Below are positions 11,676 through 62,429 of a stretch of 64,000 nucleotides of DNA, in pieces. Every line of letters starts with the position of its first letter. Position 1 is the stretch's first letter. Source of the DNA: Lampris incognitus (Eukaryota > Chordata > Actinopteri > Lampriformes > Lampridae). Both the position numbers and the translations under genes were made by a program. The stretch is from contig NC_079221.1 in assembly GCF_029633865.1 (NCBI RefSeq), positions 3,412,230 through 3,476,229 on the forward strand, given 5' to 3'. The notes below the pieces were generated by a model. That model was given only the letters and a program-made list of their open reading frames with translations. It was not told where the DNA came from and did not search any database.

Positions 11676-11878
11676 CTATGGCATGTCGTCCGTCTCCTCG
11701 GCCTCCACCAGGCAGGACCGGTCGGCGCCCGGGGTCCGGAAAGGTGGGTGGTACTCAAACGAGGTGAACATGGTGGAGCCAAAGTCATGTTTCTGGTGCA
11801 GGAACCAAATGACTGCCGATACACCCATGATAGCTACCACAGCCAGTATGACGAGGGCAGACACCAGCGGGGTAGGTT
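11676..11878 (-). CDS. cd302: cd302 coding exon 6 (transmembrane helix and tail)
   Basis: The acceptor TGTCCTTCTCAG precedes 11878. It encodes EPTPLVSALVILAVVAIMG and the rest of a hydrophobic helix, a WFLHQKH stop-transfer, and a cytoplasmic tail ending DDMP-stop. The mammalian equivalent has the same SALVI...IWFLYKKH pattern. Confidence 0.93.
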
Positions 11879-12127
11879 CTGAGAAGGACAAATAACAATG
11901 CAAGGAAGGTCACGACAAGAAACACAGGCCCACCGAGGGATGAGTAGAGAAATGGCAAACAAAGGCTCGGAAGTCTACTTACCCCGCTTGCCCTCCGCTG
12001 CCCCTGAAACACCAAGAAAACCGAAGCATGGTGAAAACATAAGAAACCCATATGGTAGATCATTCTGACATCTTAAGAAGTACAAGTGAAGTGGCCGTGG
12101 GTACACAAGTGTACATGCAGGTGAGCT

Positions 12128-12203
<76 letters not shown>

Positions 12204-14595
12204 CCTTACAATGGGAAAGCTGGACTCACTTTCTGCAGTCTCACAGATGACTCCATTCTCCACCTCGTCCAGACAGCTGACGTTCTCCCACTTCCCCGTG
12301 TTGCTGTGCATGGCCACACACGTGTCCACAGGCACCAGGTCGGACGGGCTGGAAGGGTCCTCCCAGTTTGTGAAGTTCACAGCTTGCTCCCCGAACCACT
12401 TCATGTCCTCACCTGGCGAGACACATCGATCACCACGAGAGAGCGGGACACGGCACGTAGCCTAAAAACCGACCGCTGAAGCATATGGGGGGTAACGAGT
12501 TATACAGCAATGAGGGAATAATCGTGTCGCTTTGTCCTTTTCTTTGGTCCCATGTTTTATCAAAGACCGTACGGCAAAACGGCACTGACGGATAAAACAG
12601 TGTTGTTCAAACACAGCCATTTTAAATGTCACTAGATCCATTTCAGTTCCCCCAAAAGAGTTGCAAAAGAAAAAAGAAATCTGATTTTGAACTGCTTTTT
12701 CTGTCTGGTCAGCTTTGCGGCTTCCTATAACTGGCTTCACAAAAGGCAGGATTTCCTGAAGTCCCCAAGAGGAACAGACAGCGAGCCGAACACAGGAGGC
12801 CAACCACTGCTGCTGTTGCCTGTTACCCACATTTGCCCCAGCAGCATGATGAGGGGCATGCACAGGGCTAATGGACCTTGCTCAGCACAACATGTCTGCA
12901 CGTTTATTAAAGGCTTAACCCCAGAATCTGATGCAGCGCAGACACACAGTAAAACTAGGCCATGACATGACCCCAGTCAACGGAACTGATAAATCTTTGC
13001 TTCCGGTGTGTAGTCTTATTTAGGAATCACGGCATTCCCTGTGTGAAGCGTTATGCTCCCTGGGAACACCTTCCAGCAGTGCTAGAGCCACGCGGTACTT
13101 TCTGCTTTGTGTAGTCTTACTTAGGAATCACGGCATTCCCTGTGTGAAGCGTTATGCTCCCTGGGAACACCTTCCAGCAGTGCTAGAGCCACGCGGTACT
13201 TTCTGCTTTGTGTAGTCTTACTTAGGAATCACGGCATTCCCTGTGTGAAGCGTTATGCTCCCTGGAAACACCTTCCAGCAGTGCTAGAGCCACGTGGTAC
13301 TTACTGCTTTGTGTAGTATTATTTAGGAATCACGGCATTCCCTGTGTGAAGCGTTATGCTCCCTGGGAACACCTTCCAGCAGTGCTAGAGCCACGTGGTA
13401 CTTACTGCTTTGTGTAGTCTTATTTAGGAGTCACGGCATTCCCTGTGTGAAGCGTTATGCTCCCTGGGAACACCTTCCAGCAGTGCTAGAGCCACGTGGT
13501 ACTTACTGCTTTGTGTAGTCTTATTTAGGAGTCACGGCATTCCCTGTATGAAGCGTTATGCTCCCTGGGAACACCTTCCAGCAGTGCTAGAGCCACACGG
13601 TACTTACTGCTTTGTGTAGTCTTATTTAGGAATCACGGCATTCCCTGTGTGAAGCGTTATGCTCCCTGGGAACACCTTCCAGCAGGGCTAGAGCCACACG
13701 GTACTTACTGCTTTGTGTAGTCTTATTTAGGAGTCACGGCATTCCCTGTGTGAAGTGTTATGCTCCCTGGGAACACCTTCCAGCAGTGCTAGAGCCACGT
13801 GGTACTTACTGCTTGTGTCGTAATACATGCCGAGCCAGACGTGCATGGTGCCTTTCCAAACCGCCCTGCTGTAGTCCAGGATGAAGTCGCTCTCCTCGGA
13901 GCTCTGGACAGTCACAAGTTCTGCAGGGAAGAACAGGTTGTAGTGTGACCACAGGGCCCTGCTGAGAGACCTGCAAATGCTGCTATACTGACACAAACCA
14001 CTGGAGACGCTGCGGTACCGAAGTTCTGGCAGAGCGTCTTGGCGCCCTCGAACGTGTAGCTCTTGGCTTTGTCTTCTTCCCCGTGGACCAAGTGGTAGCA
14101 TCTCTGGTTGAAGGGCACCCAGGTGCGTCCGTCCGCGGGGCAACCTGTGGGCGAGACAAGGGACCTTTAACCCCCCAGAGGGCAACGCTGCTGCTGCTGC
14201 TGCGGCGTCCTCTACTTTTACGCAACGTACGCGAGCCCCGCGCGTTTGCACGCGACACAATGTTGCGTTACTGCCGCACGACAAACACGCTCCAACGAGT
14301 GAACCCCCCCCCTCGCCTAAAAGCGACACGTGTCCAGACCCCGAAACGAGTTAATAACGCGCGTTTATCGGTTCCAACTCAACCGCAAACCCAAAAGCAA
14401 TCCGAGTCCCGTAGGATGTGACGCACACGACGCTCGGCACACCGCCCAAACCTGCAGCAAACAAGACCACAAGCCCACGCTGACAGGGACCAAACGTGCA
14501 TTTCTGCAGCACTCACCCCCACCAGCACCACCACCAGCACCACCACACACAGACGGCTGCAGATTTACAACACTGACGACCAGCCAGAGAAACAT
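11676..14595 (-). CDS. cd302: CD302 antigen-like C-type lectin receptor (six coding exons)
   Basis: The joined exons 14595-14517, 14144-14019, 13920-13810, 12412-12230, 12003-11983 and 11878-11676 total 723 nt and encode 240 aa; human CD302 has 232 aa. All introns are GT-AG and all interrupt codons after the first base. Domains: hydrophobic signal segment (residues 1-17), Gly/Ala linker, one C-type lectin-like domain (about 28-165) with six Cys (28, 42, 65, 137, 152, 162) and the VWLGMYYDTS core, a short stalk, a transmembrane helix (about 178-200) and a 40-residue tail with an acidic end (VEAEETDDMP). Potential N-glycosylation sites are NFT (118) and NVS (149). Canonical EPN/WND sugar-binding motifs are not evident, as in the mammalian protein. 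The family is known for endocytosis, phagocytosis and adhesion/migration in myeloid cells. An in-frame Met 12 codons upstream (14631) is possible; 14595 gives the better signal peptide. CTLD, microexon stalk, transmembrane segment and position near rbms1 all support CD302 over other lectins. Confidence 0.93.
11983..12003 (-). CDS. cd302: cd302 coding exon 5 (21-nt stalk microexon)
   Basis: The acceptor TTGGTGTTTCAG and donor GTAAGTAG flank exactly 21 nt, giving seven residues (RAAEGKR with split codons) between lectin domain and transmembrane helix. Length is a multiple of three and both junctions have the same phase, so skipping would leave the frame intact. Confidence 0.85.
12129..12200. 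repeat. (CA)36 microsatellite in cd302 intron 4
   Basis: An uninterrupted dinucleotide tract, (GT)n on the gene's sense strand, fills about a third of the 226-bp intron 4. It lies between the exon 4 donor and the acceptor of a 21-nt microexon. Confidence 0.97.
12230..12412 (-). CDS. cd302: cd302 coding exon 4 (C-terminal half of lectin domain)
   Basis: The acceptor CTCGCCAG precedes 12412. Residues 106-166 include KWFGEQAVNFTNWED, PVDTC, KWENVSC and NGVICETAE, with the last three lectin-domain cysteines. The donor is GTGAGTCC. Confidence 0.93.
13008..13809. repeat. 101-bp minisatellite in cd302 intron 3, about 8 copies
   Basis: The phase is set by TAGGAATCACGGCATTCCCT (variant TAGGAGTCAC in some copies), which recurs every 101 bp (13021, 13122, 13223 and so on). 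On the gene's sense strand each unit contains AAGCAGTAAGTACCACGTGG or a variant, the same sequence as the end of exon 3 plus its donor. The first two units (near 13100 and 13200) have AAGCAGAAAGTACC instead and so lack the GT. The array joins the real donor without a break. Confidence 0.95.
13810..13920 (-). CDS. cd302: cd302 coding exon 3 (lectin domain core)
   Basis: The acceptor TTCCCTGCAG precedes 13920. Residues 69-105 include ESDFILDYSRAVWKG and VWLGMYYDTS, which align with the mammalian NAFILD...WKG...LLGMFYDT region. The donor GTAAGTACC after 13810 is the sequence copied repeatedly in the intron 3 minisatellite. Confidence 0.92.
14019..14144 (-). CDS. cd302: cd302 coding exon 2 (N-terminal half of lectin domain)
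   Basis: The acceptor CCCACAG precedes 14144. The exon encodes residues 27-68, including CPADGRTWVPFNQRCYHLV, the first Cys pair and C65. The donor is GTACCG after 14019, a weaker match to consensus than the other donors in this gene. Confidence 0.9.
14517..14595 (-). CDS. cd302: cd302 coding exon 1 (signal peptide)
   Basis: It encodes MFLWLVVSVVNLQPSV plus a Gly/Ala-rich stretch (residues 1-26 and one base of codon 27). The donor GTGAGT follows at 14516. The Gly/Ala stretch comes from a GGTGGTGCT-type trinucleotide-rich run and may vary in length. Confidence 0.85.
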
Positions 14596-20213: not shown

Positions 20214-20741
20214 ACACAAGTTGATCAGTGCAACACAAAACACACGAGACGTATTGCTTCAGTAGAACAGCAGATGGAAAAGTACACAAAGACGGACGGA
20301 AATGAAATGTACACAAATGTAAAGTACAACGTTCAGATAGTATGAATGAATGATTAGTTTAGGCTTTGTGAAGGATCTGGAAGGGCAAATAGTAATAACA
20401 AAACGTATCTCACAGACGCCGCTAGGGGCGCCCTGTAGCCTACTAGGTGTGTCATGACCATGGTCATGACGCAATAGAACGTCAGAAATGTTGAACAAAG
20501 ATGGCGGAGCGATGCTCCTGACTGCTGTCGTTGCCAACTTCTCCTTTTATATTTTGCATAACTATGCATAATTACCATAATTATATTTTAATGTTCTGCT
20601 ATTTTTTATAGGTGCTCCTGATCATCCCCAATAACCTCCAAAAAGGGTCGAGGCCCCGAGTGCTTTCTTATAGACTCCCACACAGACACACGTGGTGACA
20701 ATACAGGAGTAGAGCAGGTAGACATGGGAACACTCGGGCAG

Positions 20742-20975
20742 CGGGGCGGCGTGGCTCGGGAGGTGGAGCGGGCCGTCCTGTAATCAGAAGGTTGCTGGTT
20801 CAATCCCCGGCTCCTTCCAGCGGGGCGGCGTGGCTCGGGAGGTGGAGCGGGCCGTCCTGTAATCAGAAGGTTGCTGGTTCAATCCCCGGCTCCTTCCAGC
20901 GGGGCGGCGTGGCTCGGGAGGTGGAGCGGGCCGTCCTGTAATCAGAAGGTTGCTGGTTCAATCCCCGGCTCCTTC
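20742..20975 (+). repeat. Triplicated 79-bp tRNA-like SINE head
   Basis: Three direct copies start at 20742, 20821 and 20900. Each has GTGGCTCGGGAGGTGGAGCG in the A-box region and GCTGGTTCAATCCCCGGC as B box. The third runs into a SINE body, so one SINE's promoter-bearing head has been tandemly multiplied. Confidence 0.9.
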
Positions 20976-59169: not shown

Positions 59170-62100
59170 CCAACACCCGCTACACACCCGCTACACACCC
59201 GCCGCACCCCCGCCGCACACCCTCTACACACCCGCTACACACCCTCTACACACCCGCTACACACCCGCTACACACACCTACACACCCTCTACACACCCGC
59301 TACACACCCGCTACACACCCTCTACACACCCGCTACACACCCGCTACACACCCTCTACACACCCGCTACACACCCGCTACACACCCTCTACACACCCGCT
59401 ACACACCCTCTACACACCCGCTACACACCCGCTACACACCCGCCACACACCCGCCGCACACCCTCTACACACCCGCTACACACCCTCTACACACCCGCTA
59501 AACACCCTCTACACACCCGCTACACACACCTACACACCCTCTACACACCCGCTACACACCTGCTACACACCCGCTACACACCCGCTAAACACCTACACAC
59601 CCGCTACACACCCGCCACACACCCGCTACACACCCGCTACACCCGCTACACACACCTACACACCCGCTACACACACCTACACACCCGCTACACCCGCTAC
59701 ACACACCTACACACCCGCTACACCCGCTACACACACCTACACACCCGCTACACACACCTACACACACCTACACACCCGCTACACACCTACACACCCTCTA
59801 CACACCCTCTACACACCCGCTACACACCCTCTACACGTCTACACACCCGCTACACACCCTCTACACACCCGCTACACACCCTCTACACACCCTCTACACA
59901 CCCGCTACACGTCTACACACCCTCTACACACCCGCTACACACCCGCTACACATCTACACACCCGCTACACACCCGCTACACACCCGCTACACACCTGCAC
60001 ACCTGCACACACCCGCTACACACCCGCTACACACCCGCTACACACCTGCACACCTGCACACACCCGCTACACACCCGCTACACACCCTCTACACACCTGC
60101 ACACCCTCTACACAACCGCTACACACCTACACACCCGCTACACACCCGCTACACACCTACACACCCGCTACACACCCGCTACACACCTGCACACCCGCTA
60201 CACACCCTCTACACACCCGCTACACACCCTCTACACACCCGCTACACACCCGCTACACACCTACACACCCTCTACACACCTACACACCCGCTACACACCC
60301 GCTACACACCTACACACCCGCTACACACCCTCTACCCACCCGCTACACACCTGCACACCCGCTACACACCCGCTACACACCTACACACCCGCTACACACC
60401 CTCTACACACCCGCACAGCCGCTACACACCCGCTACACACCTACACACCCGCTACACACCCTCTACACCCGCTACACCCGCTACACACCCGCTACACACC
60501 CGCTACACACCTACACACCCTCTACACACCTACACACCCTCTACACACCTACACACCCGCTACACACCCGCTACACACCTACACACCCGCTACACACCCG
60601 CTACACACCTACACACCCGCTACACACCCTCTACACACCCGCTACACACCCTCTACACACCCGCTACACACCCGCTACACACACCTACACACCCGCTACA
60701 CACCTGCACACCCGCTACACACCCGCTACACACCTACACACCCGCTACACACACCTACACACCTACACACCTACACACCCTCTACACACCCGCTACACAC
60801 ACCTGCACACCCGCTACACACCCGCTACACACCTGCACACCCGCTACACACCCGCTACACACCCGCTACACACCCGCTACACACCTGCACACCTGCTACA
60901 CACCTACACATCCTCTACACCCCTACACATCCTCTACACCCCTACACATCCTCTACACACCTACACACCCTCTACACACCTACACATCCTCTACACCCTA
61001 CACTTCCTCTACACCCCTACACATCCTCTACACACCTACACACCCTCTACACAGCTACACACCCTCTACACACCTACACATCCCCTACACCCCTACACAC
61101 CCTCTACACACCTACACTTCCTCTACACCCCTACACATCCTCTACACACCCTCTACACCCTCTACACACCTACACATCCTCTACACCCCTACACACCCTC
61201 TACACACCTACACATCCTCTACACCCCTACACATCCTCTACACACCTACACACCCCCTACACCCCTACACATCCTCTACACACCCTCTACACACCTACAC
61301 ACCCTCTACACCCCTACACATCCTCTACACCCCTACACATCCTCTAGACACCTACACACCCTCTACACCCCTACACACCCTCTACACCCCTACACATCCT
61401 CTACACCCCTACACACCCTCTACACCCCTACACACCCTCTACACACCTACACATCCTCTACACCCCTACACATCCTCTACACACCCTCTACACACCTGCA
61501 CATCCTCTACACCCCTACACATCCTCTACACCCCTACACACCCTCTACACCCCTACACATCCTCTACACCCCTACACACCCTCTACACCCATCCTCTACA
61601 CCCCTACACATCCTCTACACACCTACACATCCTCTACACCCCTACACATCCTCTACACCCCTACACACCCTCTACACCCCTACACATCCTCTACACCCCT
61701 ACACATCCTCTAGACACCCTCTACACACCTACACACCCTCTACACCCCTACACACCCTCTACACCCCTACACATCCTCTAGACACCTACACATCCTCTAC
61801 ACCCCTACACATCCTCTACACACCTACACACCCTCTACACCCCTACACACCCTCTACACCCCTACACACCCTCTACACCCCTACACATCCTCTACACCCC
61901 TACACATTCTCTACACACCCTCTACACACCTACACACCTACACATCCTCTACACATCCACTACACACCTACACATCCTCTACACCCCTACACATCCTCTA
62001 CACACCTATACACCCTCTACACACCTACATATCCGCTACACCCCTACACATCCTCTACACCCCTACACATCCTCTAGACACCCTCTACACACCTACACAC

Positions 62101-62415
62101 CCTCTACACCCCTACACATCCTCTACACCCCTACACATTCTCTACACACCCTCTACACCCCTACACACCCTCTACACCCCTACACATCCTCTACACCCCT
62201 ACACATTTTCTACACACCCTCTACACACCTACACACCTACACATCCTCTACACATCCACTACACACCTACACATCCTCTACACCCCTACACATCCTCTAC
62301 ACACCTATACACCCTCTACACACCTACATATCCGCTACACACCTACACATCCGCTACACACCTACACATCCGCTACACACCTACACATCCGCTACACACC
62401 TCCACACCCGCTACA
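59170..62415. repeat. 3.2-kb satellite based on an 11-bp unit
   Basis: The first half (to about 60900) is CTACACACCCG / CTACACACCCT units of 11 bp with occasional shorter ones. The second half is dominated by CTCTACACCCCTACACATC units of about 19 bp. A block of about 140 bp at 61904-62045 recurs at about 62203-62340, roughly 299 bp later. The plus strand lacks stops, giving a 972-codon frame that is purely repeat-derived. Confidence 0.97.
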
Positions 62416-62429
62416 CAGCGGCCACAGAA

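Follow-up and report, generated by a model that had tools for sequence, protein, structure and literature searches.

The window, a stretch of 64,000 nucleotides from Lampris incognitus, lies on a 60-Mb contig of a 1.48-Gb assembly with 537 contigs. Its minus strand carries a cd302-like gene, for which the following exons were modelled.

14517..14595, minus strand: cd302 exon 1, coding from the chosen ATG, 79 nt (gene model)
14019..14144, minus strand: cd302 exon 2, 126 nt, with a less certain donor end (gene model, donor score)
13810..13920, minus strand: cd302 exon 3, 111 nt, phase 1 at start and end (gene model)
12230..12412, minus strand: cd302 exon 4, 183 nt, end of the lectin domain (gene model, Pfam)
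11983..12003, minus strand: cd302 exon 5, 21 nt (gene model)
11676..11878, minus strand: cd302 exon 6, coding part of 203 nt, with the transmembrane segment and tail, by inspection (gene model)

Joined, the six exons give an open frame of 723 nt, encoding 240 residues. All five introns have AG acceptors and GT donors, and all lie in phase 1. In exon 1, a second in-frame ATG was seen by eye upstream of the chosen one. Pfam recognizes Lectin_C in a single stretch of the product (6.8e-14), and searches of solved structures returned relatives including CD302, LY75 and PLA2R-type receptors. By whole-chain score, LY75 and PLA2R-type chains stood above CD302 in the two structure searches, with 7qsr present in the second only. 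Among the single-domain scores printed, CD302 was the best in both (82.5 bits in the first, 83.0 in the second), the others being 9wyt (58.0 bits) and LY75 (43.8 bits) in the first search and 9wyt (38.6 bits) in the second. Because the product has a hydrophobic N-terminus, one lectin domain and a single hydrophobic segment close to the C-terminus, followed by a short tail (the hydrophobic parts recognized by inspection), it has the layout of CD302, and cd302 is a fitting name for the gene. The donor of exon 2 (TCG/GTACCG at 14019, the slash marking the exon border) is poor, scoring -3.2 by an approximate weight table. Near this donor the joined protein appears to run a few residues short, judged against human CD302. 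The exon 2 border may therefore sit elsewhere, which leaves the reading of exon 3 unaffected.

A minisatellite extends into the 3' terminus of exon 3. The tandem repeat finder TRF called it at 13007-13818, with a period of 101, 8.0 copies and 97% matches. When split in register, it resolved into eight head-to-tail units of exactly 101 bp each, spanning 13008-13815, and seven units matched the reference unit at 13311-13411 at 95-98% in strict register. Only 11 of the 101 columns vary among the eight units, and any two units differ at 1-6 of 101 sites. The array thereby has the head-to-tail arrangement, the unit size (roughly 10-100 bp) and the high identity of a minisatellite. The initial annotation described it as running without a break into the true donor, which holds: the exon-proximal unit itself contains the exon 3 donor. 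The array and its donor positions, where "decoy" stands for an intact copy of the true donor, are listed below.

13008..13815, minus strand: minisatellite of eight 101-bp units (TRF, unit split, variable columns)
13715..13815, minus strand: exon-proximal unit with the true exon 3 donor (unit split and gene model)
13700..13713, minus strand: decoy donor 1, AAGCAGTAAGTACC (unit split)
13599..13612, minus strand: decoy donor 2, AAGCAGTAAGTACC (unit split)
13498..13511, minus strand: decoy donor 3, AAGCAGTAAGTACC (unit split)
13397..13410, minus strand: decoy donor 4, AAGCAGTAAGTACC (unit split)
13296..13309, minus strand: decoy donor 5, AAGCAGTAAGTACC (unit split)
13195..13208, minus strand: lost donor in the next-farthest unit, AAGCAGAAAGTACC (unit split)
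13094..13107, minus strand: lost donor in the farthest unit, AAGCAGAAAGTACC (unit split)

Exon 3 ends at 13810, and the GT of its donor occupies 13809-13808. Read on the minus strand, which is the sense strand, the 14-mer AAGCAGTAAGTACC covers the true donor at 13801-13814 and recurs in five of the seven other units, with starts at 13296, 13397, 13498, 13599 and 13700. The exon-proximal unit opens with CAAGCA and the other seven with AAAGCA. This start is followed by GTAAGTACC, except in the two most distal units, where GAAAGTACC (GAAAG) stands instead. The combination AAGCA/GTAAGTACC is repeated exactly in five of the seven non-proximal units. In the whole window GTAAGTACC occurs six times on the minus strand and not at all on the plus strand, the same number as the true donor and its five copies. 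The five decoys are identical to the true donor from -5 to +9, which bears out the earlier statement that five of the seven extra units carry a donor in tandem: all 14 bases agree, in register. Local sequence gives no distinction between the true donor and the decoys by the donor 9-mer (-3 to +6), the donor score or the modelled U1 duplex, whose energy is -7.0 kcal/mol for all six; the scores that rest on the weight table and the U1 5' end are approximate.

The two units farthest from exon 3 have indeed lost the GT, as had been noticed initially, and both read AAGCAGAAAGTACC. Because these units differ from each other at only 1 of 101 sites, the two dead copies are best read as a single loss copied by duplication, the simplest account of the sequence. 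We found no sign of selection for the decoys. The 14-base donor segment holds 1 of the 11 variable columns, with 1.5 expected by its length; it is not depleted in variable columns, and selection keeping the decoys was rejected. Masking of the donor by a hairpin was likewise rejected, as the exon-proximal unit, the one unit folded, folds no better than shuffles (z -0.58; 53 of 200 shuffles reach a fold at least as good). G triplets, present twice in each of the eight units, were set aside as unexceptional for the composition by our own estimate.

What would follow from use of a decoy can be read from the frame. All five intact decoys lead to one in-frame TAA in the first unit and to a product of 132 residues, and the two dead positions, if used, would lead to the same TAA and the same product. 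In this product, DTSS is the last stretch in the true frame, and 26 foreign codons follow before the stop; it had no match in Pfam at E 0.001. The initial annotation proposed that decoy use would add intron sequence to the lectin domain. Foreign codons are indeed added, but the TAA cuts the domain, and the predicted product is one truncated inside the lectin domain, not a lengthened one. The stop is followed by exon junctions 4/5 and 5/6. By the usual rule, junctions far beyond a stop favor nonsense-mediated decay (NMD), and the decoy transcript is probably an NMD target. Since every intact decoy hits the same early stop, stray use of any of them would lower the amount of productive cd302 mRNA and create no new lectin. 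Exonisation inside the array through an acceptor within a unit was considered and rejected as improbable: the four acceptor-like CAG/TAG sites of the single unit examined have poor tracts of 5-8 pyrimidines in the 16 bases upstream, compared with 9-13 of 16 at the five acceptors of cd302.

We favor a reading in which a segment with one end in exon 3 was duplicated and expanded, and in which the copies are passengers while the exon-proximal donor is mostly used; on the sequence, we give it a probability of roughly 0.7. About 101 bp, beginning at the tail of exon 3 (at least AAGCA) and reaching approximately 96 bases into intron 3, would have been duplicated in tandem. The array would then have grown to eight units, most likely through unequal exchange or slippage, as for minisatellites, with the exon-proximal unit retaining the working donor. 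One ancestral copy would have lost its GT before being duplicated itself. As passengers, the decoys would leave most transcripts spliced from the exon-proximal donor. The decoys most likely do little, and calling them mostly silent is our guess.

Among identical donors, those nearer to the acceptor may be preferred. Where donors compete, SRSF1 shifts the choice to the intron-proximal and hnRNP A1 to the intron-distal site, according to the part of PMC5585400 that treats them. If the decoys were meaningfully used, the ladder would be a switch to unproductive mRNA whose strength depends on how many copies are intact, and we consider this unlikely. The perfect match of five decoys to the true donor would suit such a switch, as would the common stop and the two downstream junctions, the usual NMD setting. 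Precedents also exist: in the passages concerned, the length of the MIR137HG variable number tandem repeat (VNTR) goes with alternative 5' splicing (PMC6692358), and in IFI6 two repeat units farther downstream reportedly act as donors (PMC4526556). Yet the donor columns carry no mark of selective maintenance, and two of the seven copies are dead. A copy-number rheostat, in which the share of unproductive cd302 splicing follows the count of intact decoys and more units mean less CD302, is in our judgment very unlikely.

Under the favored reading, duplication and expansion with passenger copies, the array was likely born at the exon 3 splice donor, because the donor unit belongs to the array like any other, in register, and the copies keep five exonic bases; the order of events is taken from the anatomy. 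The initial annotation saw here direct evidence of a repeat born at a splice site. The register and the five kept bases speak for its claim that the array came from an exon-intron boundary, and the birth itself is deduced from this anatomy and not directly evidenced. The alignment of the units with exon 3 and intron 3, which it had called for, confirmed a donor unit in register, while the part of the exon that is exactly shared with the copies amounts to five bases (AAGCA), and what lies beyond is within chance: the likeness between exon 3 and the unit upstream of AAGCA was matched by 685 of 5000 shuffles and is not significant. The end of exon 3 was also compared with the distal edge of the array as possible breakpoints, and scores at least as good came from 404 of 5000 shuffles and from 78 of 5000 pieces drawn at random from the window; this microhomology is weak and suggestive only.

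These two results would fit an array that arose within the intron and included the donor later, perhaps through conversion at the exon edge. Such an origin is quite unlikely. It needs an extra step, and the donor unit sits in register, its 2-6 differences per 101 sites from the other seven being much like those that separate them from one another. In 20,000 draws of a random-placement trial with 13 arrays, one of the five donors of cd302 was covered by an array in 0.4% of cases, and a cd302 donor or acceptor in 0.8%. By extrapolation, the capture of a donor by an array is unusual for one gene and expected somewhere in a genome.

Searches of the species' own genome placed the array and its flank at this locus. 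Querying with 401 bases of the array yielded four matches, all inside the cd302 array, the DNA of exons 2-3 matched one place, and a protein search gave five matches, all in the cd302-like gene, from 17 scored candidates; as the searches skip very common words and score the best candidates only, these matches are not proof of uniqueness. In the DNA (exon 2-3) and protein searches, no array-free paralogue was found that could serve as an outgroup. That the copy number, or the reach of the array to the exon, is an assembly error is highly improbable. Tandem arrays in general are often misassembled, whereas this one is shorter than 1 kb, mixes unit differences at 11 columns and lies on a 60-Mb contig, with an exon-side flank that matches a single place.

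Donor-like sequences in repeats are also found elsewhere. Thirteen arrays of the window were scored for donors. The cd302 array holds eight minus-strand sites that reach at least the score of the true donor, namely the six donors and two others, and two of the 12 other scored arrays hold such sites as well (4 and 199). The larger number belongs to the minus strand of an array at 59216-62417 (over 3 kb, with periods of 11, 19 and 30), again by the same approximate table. Genome-wide, three AGGTRAGT motifs at steps of 80-110 bases, the range covered by the scan, gave 2,386 matches (1,645 forward, 741 reverse), many of those listed overlapping within single arrays, and the reversed-pattern control gave 4,824 (2,453 and 2,371). 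The cd302 ladder reads CAGTAAGT and does not fit AGGTRAGT, so the scan concerns donor-like ladders in general. Such ladders are ordinary in this genome and do not exceed the control. What is uncommon is that the cd302 ladder probably descends from a real donor. The commonness of ladders and the two other scored arrays might hint that repeat composition gave the cd302 ladder its donor-like motifs by chance, with no tie to the donor of exon 3; this is scarcely credible given 14 of 14 bases matching in register with a true donor that itself lies within a unit.

The window is rich in tandem repeats. Those with a period of at least 10 and a length of at least 100 make up 20.6% of it, about five times the 3.9% in genome samples, which were thirteen 10-kb pieces, two of them flanking the window and three containing N (2,500, 1,697 and 144 bases). 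At 20739-20975, three copies of a 79-bp unit match at 100% and include the stretch GGTTCAATCCC, which we take to be tRNA-like. This is possibly a young SINE-derived array.

The array in cd302 is an experiment of nature on spliceosomal choice between six donors that are identical over 14 bases and differ only in context and position. The readout would be simple, with a single truncated product predicted from all intact decoys. If the decoys are used, the effect is probably a loss of productive cd302 mRNA. Read for its likely origin, the locus also tells of a splice site swept into a minisatellite, in a gene whose joined reading frame is still open.

Several known systems resemble this one. In human IFI6, a minisatellite has been described as providing multiple splice donors (cited in PMC2572611 and PMC4526556), with two downstream repeat units said to serve as donors, giving three mRNA species (PMC4526556). 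The cd302 array is alike in that tandem units adjoining an exon offer further complete donors. The units of IFI6 are said to be used in mRNA, whereas the cd302 unit is 101 bp long and its intact decoys are candidate donors leading to an early stop. Tandem duplication that copies splice signals is also the theme, in the relevant portions of PMC4974935, of potato RdRp, where the copied segment of a tandem genomic duplication crosses an intron-exon boundary, and of fission yeast genes, where a 24-bp AGGT segment was multiply duplicated. Both are cases of intron gain. In cd302, by contrast, the copies sit by their anatomy inside the existing intron 3 and probably create no new donor-acceptor pair and no new intron. 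The cd302 unit is also longer than the fission yeast segment, and the outcome would be unproductive if the decoys were used. The MIR137HG VNTR is comparable as a repeat whose length is tied to alternative 5' splicing; the alternative sites of that locus fall within the sequence of pre-miR-137, and the passages of PMC6692358 on splicing do not call the repeat units donors. The cd302 ladder itself was not met in the titles and abstract openings searched, a coverage outside which most subscription papers fall. Splice donors borne by repeats are thus of a known kind, to which the cd302 array adds a further case.
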